From: an uncultured Paracoccaceae bacterium
GTDB taxonomy: Bacteria > Pseudomonadota > Alphaproteobacteria > Rhodobacterales > Rhodobacteraceae
Assembly: GCA_947502145.1 (NCBI GenBank)
Contig: CANMYO010000004.1
Span: 124,001-188,000 of the forward strand
Length of the DNA: 64,000 bases
Reading direction: 5' to 3'
Position numbers and translations under genes: made by a program. Position 1 is the stretch's first letter, and every line of letters starts with the position of its first letter. The notes below the pieces were generated by a model. It searched no databases and had not been told where the DNA came from. It saw nothing but the letters and a program-made list of their open reading frames with translations. Below are positions 57,263 through 64,000 of this stretch, piece by piece.

Positions 57263-59257
57263 ATGCGCCAGATTTCCCTTACCTTCCCCGATGGCAATGT
57301 GCGCGAATTTGCAGCAGGTATCACCGCTGCCGAAGTCGCTGCCGACATCTCATCATCGCTGAAAAAGAAAGCCATCTCTGCGACGGTCAATGGCCAGCAT
57401 TGGGATTTGCAGTGGCCAATTGACGCGGATGCACAGATTGCCATCAACACGATGAAGGACGAGGAACCGGCGCTGGAACTTGTCCGTCATGACCTGGCGC
57501 ATATCATGGCGCGCGCCGTGCAGGAGATCTGGCCGGACGTGCAGGTGACAATCGGGCCGGTGATCAAGGATGGCTGGTATTATGACTTTGACCGGGCTGA
57601 ACCCTTTGTGCCCGAAGACCTCGCGCTGATCGAAAAGAAGATGAAGGAGATCATCAACAAGCGCGATCCCGTCCGCACCGAAATCTGGGCGCGCGAAAAG
57701 GCGATTGCCTATTATCAAGAGCGCAACGAGCCCTACAAGGTTGAGCTGATCGAGAGCATCCCCGGTGATGAGCCGCTGCGCATGTATTGGCATGGCGATT
57801 GGCAGGACCTGTGCCGCGGACCGCATTTGCAGCATACCGGTCAGGTGCCGGGTGATTGTTTCAAGCTGATGTCGATTGCCGGTGCCTACTGGCGTGGCGA
57901 CAGCAACCGCGCGATGCTGCAGCGGATCTATGGTGCCGCCTTTACCAACAAGGAAGGCCTGAAGGCCCACATGCACCGGCTGGAAGAGGCCGCCAAACGC
58001 GACCATCGCAAGCTGGGCCGCGAGATGGGCCTTTTCCATATGCAGGAGGAGGCGCCCGGTCAGGTGTTCTGGCACCCCAATGGCTGGACGATCTACACGA
58101 CCTTGCAGGATTTCATCCGGCGCAAGCAGCGCGCGGGCGGCTATGTTGAGGTCAACACGCCGCAGGTGGTGGATCGCAAGCTGTGGGAGGCCTCGGGCCA
58201 TTGGGAAAAGTTTCAGGAAAGCATGTTCATCGTTGAGGTCGACGAAAGCCGGACCGAGGACGGGGACAATGCGCAGGACTTTGACGAGCGGATCAACGAT
58301 CCCAAGCATACCCGGGTCAATGCGCTGAAACCGATGAACTGCCCCTGCCACGTGCAGATTTTCAATCAAGGTCTGAAGTCCTATCGCGACCTGCCGCTGC
58401 GCATGGCCGAATTCGGGTCCTGCGCGCGATACGAACCGTCAGGCGCGCTGCATGGGATCATGCGGGTGCGTGGCTTTACCCAGGATGATGGACATATCTT
58501 TTGCCGCGAAGACCAGATTGAAAGCGAAACGGCGGTCTATATCGACTTTCTGTCGTCGATCTATCGCGACCTGGGCTTTGATGCCTTCAAGGTGAAGTTC
58601 TCGGACCGGCCGGCCAAGCGCGCGGGGACAGATGAAACCTGGGACAAGGCCGAAAAAGCGCTGCTGGCGGCAACCCGCGCGGCGGGGATCGAACCGGAGC
58701 TGAACCCCGGCGAAGGGGCGTTTTACGGCCCCAAGCTGGAATTCGTGCTGACCGATGCGATTGGCCGCGACTGGCAATGCGGCACGCATCAGGTGGACTT
58801 TGTCCTGCCGGAACGTCTGGGTGCGGATTACATCGGCGAGGATGGCAACAAGCACCGCCCCGTCATGCTGCACCGGGCGACACTGGGGTCGTTTGAACGG
58901 TTTATTGGTATTCTGATCGAGGAACACGCCGGCAAGCTGCCGTTCTGGCTGGCCCCGCGTCAGGTGGTTGTTGCCTCGATCGTGTCGGATGCGGACGATT
59001 ACGTGCATGAGGTCGTCGCGGCGCTGCAGGCCAAGGGCGTGCGGGCAGAGGCCGACACCCGCAATGAGAAGATCAACTACAAGGTGCGCGAGCACAGCCT
59101 GGGCAAGGTGCCGGTGATCCTGGCAATCGGTGCGCGCGAGGTCGAGGAACGCAGTGTGAGCGTGCGGCGGCTTGGCGAAAACCGAACGTCTGTAACATCG
59201 TTAGATGAAATTGTTGCAAACCTTGCCGTCGAAGCGACACCGCCAGACCTTTTGTAA
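57263..59257 (+). CDS. thrS: Threonyl-tRNA synthetase
   Basis: A 664-residue class II synthetase. Domains in order: TGS (1-62, [16 protein letters not shown]), editing/SAD domain ([18 protein letters not shown] and GPHLQHTG), catalytic core ([15 protein letters not shown] with a zinc Cys, [20 protein letters not shown] motif 2) and the HGTP anticodon-binding domain ([18 protein letters not shown]). The frame is open 31 codons upstream, but ATG at 57263 gives the TGS start and follows GAGGAG. A strong terminator lies just after the stop. Confidence 0.97.
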
Positions 59258-59281
59258 CAATTATCACCCTGCGATTGAAAC

Positions 59282-59316
59282 AAACCCGCCGTTATTCCGG
59301 CGGGTTTGTTTGTTTC
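59282..59316 (+). terminator. Rho-independent terminator after thrS
   Basis: A perfect 10-bp stem (AAACCCGCCG at 59282-59291 with 59298-59307), a six-base loop and GTTTGTTTC. It starts 24 bases past the thrS stop and isolates the downstream RiPP operon. Confidence 0.88.
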
Positions 59317-59495
59317 GGCCCGAAATTGCCTGTGACAGGCGGTCGCAGGCGGGGATCGGCTCAAAACCTGCTCACGGAAACGCGACCCACGGGTCTGTGA
59401 ATGGATTGTTAGTCATGGCCCGGCCTAAGGTCTGCTCATCGCCGATCTGCGGTGAGACTGAAACAACTGTTAACTCGACCCAAAAGGAAAATCAC

Positions 59496-59798
59496 ATGTC
59501 CAAGATGACCAACACTCTGATCGTTGCTTCTGCTGTTGCTACTGCCATTGCCGGCGTTGCAACTTCGGCTGCTGCTGAAGGTGACGAAAAGTGCTACGGC
59601 GTTTCGCTGGCTGGCGAAAATGACTGTGCCGCTGGCCCAGGCACAACCTGCGCCGGTACATCTTCTGTTGATTACCAAGGCAACGCATGGACACTGGTCC
59701 CTGCCGGTACATGCGCAACCATGGAACTGCCAGCACAGGCTGACGGCTCTGCCCGCATGGGTTCGCTGGAAGCCCTGGAGCGTGACCTGCCAGCATAA
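59496..59798 (+). CDS. bufA1: DUF2282 RiPP precursor (bufferin, BufA1 type)
   Basis: A 100-residue precursor peptide. Residues 1-27 form a Sec signal ([22 protein letters not shown]). The core has four cysteines, C33, C44, C52 and C73, in EKCYGV, NDCAAG, TTCAGT and GTCATM, and the block [16 protein letters not shown] is the DUF2282 hallmark. A charged C-terminal tail ([15 protein letters not shown]) may be the recognition element for the maturation enzymes. In known bufferins some core cysteines become thiooxazoles and the peptide binds copper in the periplasm; here that is inference. AAGGAAA gives a strong ribosome-binding site at ATG 59496. Confidence 0.9.
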
Positions 59799-59826
59799 GC
59801 GACATTCGCTTAACGAAAATTGTGTT

Positions 59827-59850
59827 AGGGTGGGCTATGGCTCACCCTTT
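59827..59850 (+). terminator. Stem-loop between bufA1 and the modification genes
   Basis: A 9-bp stem with one G-U pair (59827-59835 with 59840-59848) and a TATG loop, ending in TTT. It lies 28 bases after the precursor stop. The T-run is short, so partial termination or 3'-end protection is likely, giving more precursor than enzyme. Confidence 0.55.
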
Positions 59851-59879
59851 CGCACCCATCCCAGACCCAGGGTCCTCCC

Positions 59880-60731
59880 ATGTTTGACGCAACGCTTCAT
59901 ACGCTGCCGCACAAACCCGGCGTCGGCTACAAACCCCAACATTACAGTGACATAACCGCGCGCCCCGGCCCGCTTGGCTGGCTTGAAATCCACGCGGAGA
60001 ACTACATGGGGGACGGTGGGCGCCCGCTGGCACAACTGCGCCATCTGTCTGAACACTTCCCGATCTCGGTCCATGGCGTTGGCCTGTCCATTGGTGGCGA
60101 AGGCCGCCTGGACCCCGATCATCTGACCCGGTTGAAGCATCTTGTCGGCTGGCTGAACCCGGCCAGCTTTTCCGAACATCTGGCCTGGTCGACCCATGAC
60201 AGCCATTTCCTGAACGATTTGCTGCCCCTGCCCTATAACGCGGCGACCGTGACCCGTGTTGCGGACCATATCGACGAGGTGCAGACGGCATTGGGCCGCA
60301 AGATGCTGCTTGAAAACCCGTCGTCCTATCTGGCCTTTGCCGAAAGCGACATGAGCGAGACGGATTTCCTGAAAGAGGTGGTTGCCCGCACCGGATGTGG
60401 CCTGCTGCTGGATGTGAACAATGTCTTTGTCAGTGCCACGAACCTGGGCTTTACGCCGCAGGGATATATTGACGCCTTTCCGCTGGAACAGGTCGGCGAA
60501 ATTCATCTGGGGGGCCATGATGAAGACCAGGATGACGACGGTGCCCCGCTGCTGATCGACAGCCATGGGCGCGAAGTCGCGGATCCGGTCTGGGCGTTGC
60601 TTGAGTATACGCTGGACCGCTCTGGCGCGAAGCCGCTGCTGATCGAGTGGGATACCGACGTGCCCGAATGGCCGGTGCTTGCCGCCGAGATCGCACGCGC
60701 CGCCGGAGCGCTGAACGCGGTGCCGGCATGA
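59880..60731 (+). CDS. bufB: DUF692 multinuclear non-heme iron oxidase (MNIO), BufB type
   Basis: A 283-residue TIM-barrel enzyme that, with its DUF2063 partner, oxidises cysteines of the precursor. Likely iron ligands are visible: E37-I-H39 and E40 in EIHAENYM, H65 in SVHGVGL, E99-H100 in SEHLAW, E145 in LENPSSYL, D178/N181 in [12 protein letters not shown]209 in IHLGGH, D227/H229 in LIDSHG and E256/D258 in EWDTD. The family also contains MbnB (methanobactin) and TglH. Its position after a DUF2282 gene and before DUF2063 defines it as BufB. ATGA overlap couples it to bufC. Confidence 0.93.
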
Positions 60732-61465
60732 CCGTCAGCCAAAAGGACTTTACCGCCGGGATCCTTGATCCAACGCGGCCCGCACCCGAGGGGCTTCTGG
60801 ATGGCAAGGGCGCGCAGACCAGCAAGCGGTTTGATGTCTACCGCAACAACGTCGCCGTCAGCCTGACGGATGCGTTGGTCGCGGCCTTTCCGGTGATCTA
60901 CAAGCTGGTCGGGGATGAATTTTTCCGTGCGATGGCCGGTGTTTACCTGCGCACGCATCTGCCCGACACTGCGCTGATGATGTATTACGGCGATAAGATG
61001 CCGCAGTTCCTCAAGCGGTTTCCGCCAGCGCAATCCCTGGCCTACTTGCCCGATGTGGCGCGGCTGGAAATCGCCCTGCGCGAAAGCTATCACGCGGGCG
61101 ATGCGACGCCGGTTTCCGCGGACGTGCTGGGAACATTGGCCCCGGAGGCGCTGATGGCGGCCCGGATCAGCCTGTCGCCAGCACTGCGCATCGTGCGGTC
61201 ATCGCATCCGATCTTTGGCATCTGGCAAAGCAACATGATCGCGGACGCCCCGGCGCTGGTCAAACGCGCCGAAAACGTCCTTGTCACACGGCCGCAATTT
61301 GACCCGACACCGCATTTGATTTCGGATGCGGATGCGGACTTTATCACAGCGCTCCAACGTGGTCATGCGCTTGGCGTTGCCATGTCCAAGGCCGGACAAG
61401 GCTTTGATCTTGGTGCGCTTCTTGGTCTCCTGCTGCGGCAGGGGGCGATGACCCATATCTCTTGA
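60728..61465 (+). CDS. bufC: DUF2063 RiPP partner protein, BufC type
   Basis: A 245-residue protein whose N-terminal half is the DUF2063 domain: [17 protein letters not shown] (residues 34-50) and [18 protein letters not shown] are the family signature. In MNIO systems this partner presents the precursor to the DUF692 enzyme. The C-terminal half ([17 protein letters not shown]) is also typical. ATG at 60728 overlaps the bufB stop (ATGA); the frame is open further upstream but lies inside bufB. It is followed by the DoxX gene after 13 bases. Confidence 0.92.
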
Positions 61466-61478
61466 AAGGCCCCTCTCC

Positions 61479-62021
61479 ATGATTGCAATCTATGATCGCG
61501 CCGCCGCTGGCTTGTCCCGCACTGGCGACAACATTCTGCCCCTTGCGGCGCGTCTGGTTTTTGCAGGGGTGCTGTTCGTCTATTACTGGAATTCCGGCCT
61601 GACCAAGTTGGACGGCTTTGGTCTTTCCTCTGGCGCATATGTGCAGATCTTCCCGAAAGCGATGGAGGCGGTCGGCTATGACACTTCGCAGTTGTCACTG
61701 TTTCACACGCTGGTTGTGCTGGCCGGCACATTGGCAGAGTTCATCCTGCCGGTGCTGATCGTGATCGGGTTCCTGACCCGGTTTGCAGCACTTGGCATGA
61801 TCGGCTTTGTGGTGGTGCAATCCCTGACCGACCTTTTTGGCCATGGCGGCATTGCCCATGAGGGAACCTTGGGCGCGTGGTTTGACCGCATGCCCGATGC
61901 ACTGATCCTGGATCAGCGGGCGTTCTGGATCCTGGCGTTGCTGGTGCTGGTCTTTAAAGGCGCGGGATGGCTTTCGGTTGATCGCCTGCTTAATGCGCGC
62001 GTGGCTGATCGGGCTGCCTAG
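61479..62021 (+). CDS. bufD: DoxX-family membrane protein, BufD type
   Basis: A 180-residue inner-membrane protein with four helices. The DoxX signature is clear: ARLVFAGVLFVYYWNSGLTKL near residue 24 and the second pair AEFILPVLIVIGFLTRFAALG. DoxX proteins are common last members of bufferin operons; a redox or quinone-linked role is suspected but unproven. It lies 13 bases after bufC, so it is co-transcribed. The last 32 bases overlap the convergent membrane gene at 61990. Confidence 0.87.
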   Translation: MIAIYDRAAAGLSRTGDNILPLAARLVFAGVLFVYYWNSGLTKLDGFGLSSGAYVQIFPKAMEAVGYDTSQLSLFHTLVVLAGTLAEFILPVLIVIGFLTRFAALGMIGFVVVQSLTDLFGHGGIAHEGTLGAWFDRMPDALILDQRAFWILALLVLVFKGAGWLSVDRLLNARVADRAA

Positions 62022-62355
62022 AGGCGATCGCAAGGACGCCACCCAGCCCGACAAAGCCAATCGGGAACATGGTCCCCACGTTAAAGCCAAAGGCGGCGTA
62101 AAACGCCGCCGCTGACAGCAGCATGGCAATGCCACCCCAAAGCGCGCGATCCTTGGCCATGGCCCCACCGGCAATCGCCAGCAGCGGCGCTATGAAGCTC
62201 GCAAAGCGGATAAATGCCGGATTTTCAAAAAGATCGAAGGCATCGGCCAGTTCGGGCGCGCGGGCGGCAAGCTCTGTCGCGCCATAGCCGAACAGGCCAA
62301 CAATAATCCCAATCAGGCCGCCGATCAGGCCCAGAACAGAAGCTGCATTTCTCAT
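61990..62355 (-). CDS. Small membrane protein, hypothetical
   Basis: A 121-residue protein with four hydrophobic helices: residues 6-22 (Gly/Ile-rich), 52-66, 73-90 and 94-110. The loop between helices 1 and 2 is polar and Glu/Asp-rich (ATELAARAPELADAFDLFEN). The pattern resembles DUF4064-like proteins, which is only a loose resemblance. Convergent with bufD with a 32-base overlap. It is followed upstream on the same strand by nothing obvious in its operon. Function unknown. Confidence 0.6.
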   Translation of the reverse strand: MRNAASVLGLIGGLIGIIVGLFGYGATELAARAPELADAFDLFENPAFIRFASFIAPLLAIAGGAMAKDRALWGGIAMLLSAAAFYAAFGFNVGTMFPIGFVGLGGVLAIASRQPDQPRAH

Positions 62356-62379
62356 GATGTCGATATAGGGGTGGCGCGG

Positions 62380-62706
62380 TCAGGTTCCAAGGAACTTTGA
62401 CTGAACGTCAGCTTTCCAGCCCTGCGTCAGCCCCTCTGCATCAATCACCGGGCGCTTGAGAAGTGTCGGGTGGGCCTGCAGCAAGTCTTTGACAGGCATG
62501 GCTTTTTCCGCATCCGACAGGGACCGCCAGGTTGCTGAGGCGCGGTTGACCGCCGCCGCCCCGAAGGCGGCGATGATGCGGTTGAGATCTGCCGTCGGCA
62601 GGCCGTCATCGCGCACATCGATGACCTCTGGGTCATGGCCCGCTGCGCGCAGGGATTTCAGCGCCTTGCGACAGGTATCGCAGGATTTCAGCCCAAAAAA
62701 TCTCAT
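62380..62706 (-). CDS. ArsC/Spx-family thioredoxin-fold protein (first copy)
   Basis: A 108-residue protein of the ArsC/Spx/MgsR superfamily with CxxC at residues 9-12 (GLKSCDTCRKAL). The conserved C-terminal RPVIDAEG carries the Arg of the family. A CxxC active site fits Spx-like or uncharacterised reductases better than classical arsenate reductase, which has a single active Cys. AGAGG lies before the ATG at 62706. No arsenic genes are nearby. A related gene lies 0.8 kb away at 63496. Confidence 0.82.
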   Translation of the reverse strand: MRFFGLKSCDTCRKALKSLRAAGHDPEVIDVRDDGLPTADLNRIIAAFGAAAVNRASATWRSLSDAEKAMPVKDLLQAHPTLLKRPVIDAEGLTQGWKADVQSKFLGT

Positions 62707-62858
62707 TCTGCCTCTTCTTTCAGCACATGCGGCAATGTGTCGCGAATCAACGAAGGTGTCATTTGCCTTTTGCAAAAATGTCCTAAACTTTAGATCAGAA
62801 GGCCAGTACTCGTCCGTTTTGACGGCGCTGAAGACCTGGCGCAATGGAGGAAAAGGAC

Positions 62859-63172: not shown

Positions 63173-63499
63173 CTATCGGTCGTCCATACACGCCGTACAG
63201 AGGGCAATCGCCGGATCAGCCTGCAGGCGTGCCGCTGCGATGTCCTCACCACATCGGGCGCAATAGCCGTATTCCCCGGAGGCAATCCGATCAAGCGCGG
63301 CGATGATGCGCTGGCGCGAAACGCCACGCCGTCGCGCCTGCGCCTGTGCCATCGCCTGATTTTGCAATGCGTCCATCCGACTGAGCCGCCCGACGGCCTG
63401 CTGGTCAAGCGTCACGGTTTTCTGCCCCGCCTGCCCGGCGGCGTCCTCTGCATCAAGCTCCGCAAGGCGAAGGGTCAGGATGGTTTTGGCATCGCTCAT
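63173..63499 (-). CDS. TraR/DksA-type zinc-finger protein
   Basis: A 108-residue protein. The C4 zinc finger is intact: YCARCGEDI and, 14 residues on, LCTACMDD. The short N-terminal coiled coil lacks the long acidic-tip domain of true DksA, so it resembles the short TraR-like group that binds RNA polymerase through its secondary channel. ATG at 63499 overlaps the stop of the ArsC-like gene (ATGA), coupling the two. A role in transcription tuning under stress is plausible. Confidence 0.85.
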   Translation of the reverse strand: MSDAKTILTLRLAELDAEDAAGQAGQKTVTLDQQAVGRLSRMDALQNQAMAQAQARRRGVSRQRIIAALDRIASGEYGYCARCGEDIAAARLQADPAIALCTACMDDR

Positions 63500-63855
63500 C
63501 CCAGCCAGACCGCTTGCGCGGCATCATCCCAGCCAAGGGTGTATTTGGCACCGTCGGTGATCACCGGTCGCGCCATCAGGGCGGGTTGGTCGCGCAGCTG
63601 TGCATCGGTTTCGGATTCACGCATCCATGCGGTGAGGTTGCGGTAGGTCTGGCTTTTGCGGTCCACGAGGGTAGAGCCGAATTCAGCAAGCAGCGGGGCC
63701 CATTCGTCATCCGTCAGCCGGTCGGCGCGGACGTCGCGGAAGGTGACGTTGAGTCCGGCGGCTTCGAGCGCCTTGAGCGCGGATTTGCAGTCGGAACAGG
63801 TGGGCAGGCCGTAAAGGATCATTGCGGGGGCTTTCGGTTGGGATTCAGGTTTCAT
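63496..63855 (-). CDS. ArsC/Spx-family thioredoxin-fold protein (second copy)
   Basis: A protein of 108-119 residues with CxxC in LPTCSDCKSAL and the family Arg in LMARPVITDGA. It is a diverged relative of the copy at 62380. The start is uncertain: ATG at 63855 follows a G-rich stretch (CGGGGTTA), while ATG at 63822 (MILYGLPTCSDC) gives the standard family N-terminus without a ribosome-binding site. It is translationally coupled to the DksA-type gene, so a redox-linked transcription role is an attractive but unproven idea. Confidence 0.78.
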   Translation of the reverse strand: MKPESQPKAPAMILYGLPTCSDCKSALKALEAAGLNVTFRDVRADRLTDDEWAPLLAEFGSTLVDRKSQTYRNLTAWMRESETDAQLRDQPALMARPVITDGAKYTLGWDDAAQAVWLG

Positions 63856-63881
63856 TAACCCCGATTTGGAAGGGTTTGGCC

Positions 63882-64000
63882 ATGTCAAATTACATCAGGC
63901 CAAAGGTTAATGGGGCCACGATTTTCGTGACCGCGACGTTGGCGCATCGAGAGCGCTCCACGTTGGTTGATCACGTGAACCATTTGCGTTCGGCGGTGCG
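63882..64000 (+). CDS. REP-associated tyrosine transposase (N-terminal fragment)
   Basis: A 119-base fragment runs off the right edge. ATG at 63882 follows GAAGGG. The translation opens MSNYIRPKVNGATIFVTATL and continues to VDHVNHLRSAV, the N-terminal pattern of REP-associated tyrosine transposases (RAYT, IS200/IS605-like Y1 fold). The catalytic HxH and Tyr lie beyond the window. If complete, it would be a domesticated enzyme that handles REP sequences. Confidence 0.7.
   Translation, partial: MSNYIRPKVNGATIFVTATLAHRERSTLVDHVNHLRSAV

Follow-up and report, generated by a model that had tools for sequence, protein, structure and literature searches.

The window, by which is meant the whole 64,000-nucleotide stretch of DNA that was analysed, carries between positions 59496 and 62021 what is, judged from the predicted proteins, a four-gene Buf1 bufferin operon with the gene order bufA-bufB-bufC-doxX. 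Bufferins are modified peptides with which bacteria sequester surplus copper beyond the cell membrane; to our knowledge the switching-on of bufferin operons outside Caulobacter is poorly known. As the initial annotation had it, the four genes follow one another in one direction; all are on the forward strand, closely packed, and with open frames. Profile searches of the whole genome returned one DUF692 match and one DUF2282 match, that is, a single copy of the operon. The gene set appears to be that of an ordinary Buf1 operon, and the unusual part of the locus appears to be the control region upstream of bufA. The features of the locus are collected in Table 1.

Table 1. Features of the bufferin locus and of the genes downstream of it (positions refer to the window).
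Feature	Position	Strand	Description
Putative operator	59370-59404	+	Tandem imperfect palindromes tcacg-N4-cgcga and ccacg-N4-tgtga, then atgg
-10-like box	59426-59431	+	TAAGGT, 29 nt past the last GTGA of the operator; putative
Leader stem-loop	59435-59456	+	Predicted in the 5' leader; 8 pairs, loop of 6
bufA	59496-59798	+	100 aa, Buf1 bufferin precursor, Cys33/44/52/73
bufB	59880-60731	+	283 aa, MNIO enzyme, DUF692
bufC	60728-61465	+	245 aa, DUF2063 partner protein
doxX (bufD)	61479-62021	+	180 aa, DoxX-family membrane protein
Convergent gene	61990-62355	-	121-aa protein
ArsC/Spx-like gene	62380-62844	-	Matches Pfam ArsC
Short protein gene	63173-63499	-	Ends in CxxC...CxxC; DksA/TraR zinc-finger-like (by eye)
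ArsC/Spx-like gene	63496-63888	-	Assigned by eye

The domains named in the initial annotation, DUF2282, DUF692 and DUF2063, were searched for with profiles as it had proposed, and all three matched above the Pfam cut-offs where these are given. Every defining sequence feature of a Buf1 operon that was examined by program was found, namely the four-cysteine DUF2282 precursor, the BufB enzyme, the DUF2063 partner with its fold, and DoxX, which supports the bufferin-type architecture. The BufA protein scores 85.9 bits against Pfam DUF2282 (cut-off 22.4), and the four-cysteine peptide with the DUF2282 hallmark is thus confirmed; the cysteine spacing of 10/7/20 is that of 113 of the 117 collected BufA sequences, the window BufA included. 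By eye, the N-terminus has a basic start, a hydrophobic stretch and the sequence AAA-E, with cleavage placed near A27. The C-terminal tail, GSLxxLxRDLPA, lies outside the DUF2282 match. Of 108 proteins classed as Rhodobacteraceae, 97 contain the strict form of this pattern, and several of the other 11 depart from it by a single letter. In the available text of PMC12452194, Buf1 bufferins are described as having Sec signal peptides, central cysteines that are converted to thiooxazoles and first and last cysteines that form a disulphide, and as chelating copper in the periplasm. By analogy with the family, the window BufA would likewise bind copper, carry thiooxazoles and be exported to the periplasm, an expectation that the sequence does not contradict. 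Elsewhere in the collection, locus L121 of genome G012 has a pair of DUF2282 precursor genes in tandem before its single bufB.

The BufB protein matches Pfam PF05114 with 343.1 bits and the NCBIfam equivalog model NF050167 (MNIO_BufB) with 370.8 bits (cut-off 310), and falls below the cut-offs of the models for HvfB (232.7 bits versus 360), ApyH, MbnB and ChrH. Residues H100, E145, D178, H209, H229 and E256 match residues of the solved relatives 3bww, TglH and MbnB, which are the three of eight structure hits with printed alignments, and they are invariant in 24 of 24 BufB sequences. Residues of this kind bind iron, and the description of BufB as a DUF692 MNIO with likely ligand residues agrees with these matches. 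Asp249 of FonB is described as the catalytic base (PMC13097082, available in part), and in our reading of the alignment D258 of BufB would be its counterpart. The bufC gene overlaps bufB by the ATGA at 60728-60731, as had been noted, and residues 5-95 of its product match Pfam DUF2063 (81.5 bits, cut-off 27.2). A structural model of BufC built from 44 sequences has a pLDDT of 92.4, and the only PDB chains that it retrieved at E<=0.001 were NGO1945 (3dee) and, from two TglHI entries, chain A. These are the folds known for MNIO partners; their TM-scores, normalised by query length, are 0.56-0.61 and their rmsd values 5.4-8.1. Since 3dee carries an RRE-type domain according to the available part of PMC12452194, the modelled BufC fits a PME-type 1 partner, with DUF2063 and an RRE-type domain. 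The DoxX protein matches Pfam DoxX with 37.3 bits (cut-off 23.6), in keeping with its earlier assignment, and also matches the HvfX family model, below the cut-off of that model. Modification of the peptide is invisible at the sequence level, which would leave room for an operon that had decayed or been repurposed, its peptide left unmodified. However, the four reading frames are all open, the cysteine spacing of BufA is intact, and 23 other aligned BufB rows are 76-90% identical to the window BufB, so that such a history is considered extremely unlikely.

The locus had been described as isolated, and this did not hold up: 78 of the 80 named loci have thrS upstream of bufA, in a biased sample in that these are the best BufB matches. 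Of the two exceptions, L044 begins at bufA and L072 is without thrS within about 4.3 kb. Clustering of ORFs placed the convergent 121-aa gene in 52 of 117 loci and an ArsC-like gene in 54 of 117. Because thrS and the neighbouring ORF clusters recur, the operon occupies a conserved chromosomal position as opposed to an isolated island. The 121-aa protein, whose gene is convergent to doxX, is 93-95% identical within the genus and matches neither a Pfam nor an NCBIfam model at E<=0.001. The two ArsC/Spx-like genes downstream lie near each other, and the one that matches Pfam ArsC is frequent at the equivalent place in relatives.

Upstream of bufA lies a tandem palindrome with the consensus TNACG-N4-YGTGA-N2-CACG-N4-YGTGARTGG, from which the window site differs at 2 of the 18 specified positions. 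At up to 4 mismatches over these positions, the palindrome is present in 93 of 116 upstream regions (set against a single-base shuffle null), a count that is partly circular because the consensus was read from the sequences in which it was then counted. With only distinct regions included, the count is 91 of 114, and the corresponding dinucleotide shuffles gave 4 matches in 3420. The draw of 248 genomes and the re-scan described below are less circular, though their genera overlap the training set. Across 85 distinct regions the GTGA and the T two bases later are invariant, and most of the spacer that follows is near random. A short hairpin can be drawn for each half of the element, and the region comes after thrS, features which would also suit an RNA feature, either paired hairpins or the end of the thrS message, in place of a DNA site. 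Such an RNA feature is nonetheless very unlikely. A G present in 77 of the 78 distinct sites would have to pair with a column that reads G or A in 48 of them; in genome G092 the element sits between bufA and bufB, before bufB; and a -10-like box follows at near-fixed spacing. Indeed, RNA pairing as the cause of the palindromes was rejected on the column composition, pairing not being kept.

With the element taken as a DNA site, its position relative to the putative promoter bears on how it might act. In 75 of the 85 distinct regions, the sequence most similar to TANNNTTTG begins 28 or 29 nt past the GTGA, with ties settled towards 28. No -35-like hexamer was found at normal spacing from the -10-like box, and a scan of positions 59200-62500 for the sigma-70 consensus found no site before bufA and a single one, on the opposite strand, inside bufC. 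The operator is predicted to lie at about -68 to -34 from the transcription start. Tandem palindromes that overlap the -35 region would suit a repressor too, one that blocks RNA polymerase at -68 to -34 and is released by metal, and the computed data do not separate repression from activation. A repressor is considered rather unlikely, however, since a promoter with a -10-like box that lacks a recognisable -35 favours activation, and an activator is the most likely kind of regulator for this reason.

Between the putative promoter and bufA, the predicted leader hairpin of the window has a folding energy of -12.0 kcal/mol (z -3.0 against dinucleotide shuffles). In relatives, 30-nt windows of the leader have a mean z of -1.71 (n=80) at the offset of the hairpin, versus -0.42 to 0.24 at five other offsets. 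The stem sequences vary between genomes, which suggests that it is the pairing that matters; in Ruegeria the hairpin is weak and the stem short. A search of positions 59200-62500 against Rfam families gave five hits, all below the gathering score, which were taken as chance.

The corresponding Caulobacter operon is described as sigmaF-driven from the sequence GTAACC-N16-CGAA, with sigF and the gene for its negative regulator at neighbouring gene numbers (PMC3511200, available in part). The word 'promoter' is absent from the main text of PMC12452194, and in its available sections regulation is mentioned solely through genes for sigma factors and NrsF. For the window operon, control by sigmaF was considered and rejected: no NrsF was found in the window genome (G000), and no promoter of the sigmaF type, GTAACN-N15..17-CG[AT][AT], within 500 nt upstream of bufA. 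Among 178 genomes with a DUF2282 match, the site occurs in 3 of the 28 with NrsF versus 89 of the 150 without (totals counted by hand from the genome rows), giving a Fisher p of 1.8e-6 that overstates the case because the genomes are related and kinship was ignored. In two of these three NrsF-bearing genomes, G147 and G262, the site match is on a contig other than that of bufA. When 116 loci were searched by tblastn with the proteins of locus L120, sigF homologues were detected in eight, six of which also have nrsF; none of the eight carries the site at up to 4 mismatches. In three thrS-linked loci (L089, L111 and L124), the nrsF and sigF genes separate thrS from bufA, the site is absent, and a GTAACN-N16-CGAA sequence precedes bufA.

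The distribution of the site was also traced on a tree of BufB, for which similar site-bearing rows were thinned from 117 to 103 and the site was scored at up to 5 mismatches. By the well-supported branches, with the bootstrap unsettled, the site label needs at least 7 changes, versus a mean of 20.2 for shuffled labels. The site thus appears clustered on the BufB tree, with several switches; an unsure root and a number of long branches blur their direction. In this marine group the operon seems to be switched on through a DNA site in place of the sigma factor of Caulobacter and, as far as searches of the open-licence literature in PubMed Central show, the control region is an undescribed variant.

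The specificity of the site was assessed with a sequence-only model, R1, built from 73 of the 78 distinct sites, five similar Ruegeria sites being left out. In the window genome the model finds one strong site, at 28.5 bits, with the next best at 14.5, and neither this genome nor five relatives of the same genus has a second strong site. A search of the window genome with a short pattern at up to 3 mismatches gave 26 matches versus 16 for the reversed control, and the buf site was the only perfect one. The site at buf scores 24.3-31.9 bits in ten genomes, and all other matches in 41 genomes score at most 18.8; two known buf sites were weak in the 41-genome scan (G018, 17.0 bits; G016, 15.6 bits). 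Of 248 genomes of the family, 94 have the site at E<=0.02, namely 92 of the 178 with DUF2282 and 2 (G141 and G228) of the 70 without. The site is 153-191 nt upstream of the listed DUF2282 domain in 74 of these 94 genomes, and for most of the remaining 20 the place of DUF2282 is not listed. In G147, G246 and G262 the only site match is away from the listed bufA, and a second site was found in G078 (20.5 bits), G158 (17.5 bits) and G226 (23.7 bits). There is therefore good support for a dedicated site in the window genome and in its genus; elsewhere it is only the usual case. Since the site occurs at full strength only at buf in the window genome, the regulator would act mainly or solely on the operon there.

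DUF2282 could be placed in 148 of the 178 genomes with a match. Among these, 73 have the site only, 22 have NrsF only, one (G184) has both and 52 have neither. When 51 of the 52 last-named genomes were re-scanned with a weight matrix, a divergent site scoring at least 14 was found in 28, the highest maximum among single-base shuffles being 9.0, and 23 genomes were left with no recognised element. Twenty-seven of the 28 sites are at the usual place and one, in G092, is between bufA and bufB. The divergent copies widen the half-site to TNAC/GTNA. In G092 (L266, 1001-1035) the palindromic site stands directly before bufB, i.e. before the maturation genes, and a terminator-like hairpin and a run of T follow bufA (by eye).

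Sites of strong to middling score that lie away from buf genes include those at 2773-2807 of L282 (G226), 2813-2847 of L285 (G141) and 2763-2797 of L286 (G228). They could be chance matches, remnants or sites for some other target, and those of G141 and G228 are in genomes without a DUF2282 match. Near the stray site of G226, at a distance of about 0.6 kb, is a gene that looks TetR-like by eye. Across seven stretches around stray or second sites, no buf gene, thrS, sigF or nrsF was found, nor any shared target.

As to the regulator itself, ORF clustering of the 117 loci revealed no regulator gene that is conserved beside the operon, which would be odd for a regulator with one target; an ArsR-like gene (by eye) lies about 4 kb upstream in 26 loci and is absent from the window. 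The upstream element could instead be the site of a known global response regulator of the CopR/CusR type, which would reach other copper genes through divergent sites. The half-site TNAC-N6-GTNA fits the AgrR box, ATKACA-N4-TGTMAT, of a heavy-metal response regulator, and some AgrR boxes likewise have imperfect repeats of the half-site at their sides (PMC7380067, available in part); the window genome has three OmpR-type regulators that match TIGR01387 at E<=1e-45, the best with 241.8 bits, and a few genomes have a second site. The window genome, however, lacks a second strong site, and none of 61 genomes has a protein above the TIGR01387 cut-off of 279.2 bits. Furthermore, G011, which is of the sigmaF type and has no site, scores 256.2 bits, as opposed to 175.1 and 168.7 for the site-bearing G007 and G010. 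With scores that do not follow the site across the 61 genomes, the CopR/CusR family is not supported as the source of the regulator, and control by such a global regulator is judged unlikely. For a related operon in another genus, gold and copper induction has been described, with a unique regulator suggested and RpoS possibly involved (PMC5413113, available in part).

Taken together, it seems likely that the locus is a Buf1 operon that is off the sigmaF-NrsF system and run by a regulator at the tandem palindrome, most probably an activator. The regulator would sit on the tandem palindrome at about -68 to -34, probably in response to copper or envelope stress, and the message would begin with a stem-loop that probably stabilises the transcript. 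By family precedent, BufC would present the precursor in the cytoplasm to BufB, which would convert the central C44 and C52 to 5-thiooxazoles, a C33-C73 disulphide would be formed, and the modified peptide would leave by Sec and bind excess copper in the periplasm. On balance we lean slightly towards a wider reading, in which most Rhodobacteraceae with a bufferin operon have left sigmaF for a dedicated regulator that acts at a usually sole strong site, the two modules interchange at the thrS-linked position, and the tail GSLxxLxRDLPA may be a recognition handle for BufBC. The operator, being strong and nearly unique, offers a direct bait for the regulator in marine bacteria and a route to its metal signal, and the exchange of sigF-nrsF and operator at one syntenic position would represent a clean regulatory replacement around a conserved gene set.

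The likeness to Caulobacter that had been proposed stands for the gene set and fails for the control region. The Caulobacter Buf1 operon CC3254-CC3257 has identical domains in the same order, DUF2282-DUF692-DUF2063-DoxX, but is driven from a sigmaF promoter, whereas the window operon, which is without NrsF and a sigmaF-type promoter, has another conserved element upstream (PMC3511200, available in part). With the Buf1 family as described in the available text of PMC12452194, the locus shares the four-cysteine DUF2282 precursor, whose start resembles a Sec signal by eye, the MNIO, the DUF2063 partner and the DoxX core, DoxX being frequent, not universal, in such clusters. The captophorins fontiphorin and oxazolin (PMC13097082, available in part) are similar in their MNIO and DUF2063 partner, and their 5-thiooxazoles and copper binding would be shared; however, they have EGKCG-type repeats, whereas the window precursor belongs to the DUF2282 group. 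Finally, the operator resembles the AgrR box of Cupriavidus metallidurans (PMC7380067, in the part available), which is likewise a 6-4-6 inverted repeat with a TNAC...GTNA core and sometimes half-site repeats. The inner bases of the AgrR box are A/T, whereas those of the window element are mostly G/C, and the window element differs further in consisting of two palindromes fused at a 15-bp spacing.
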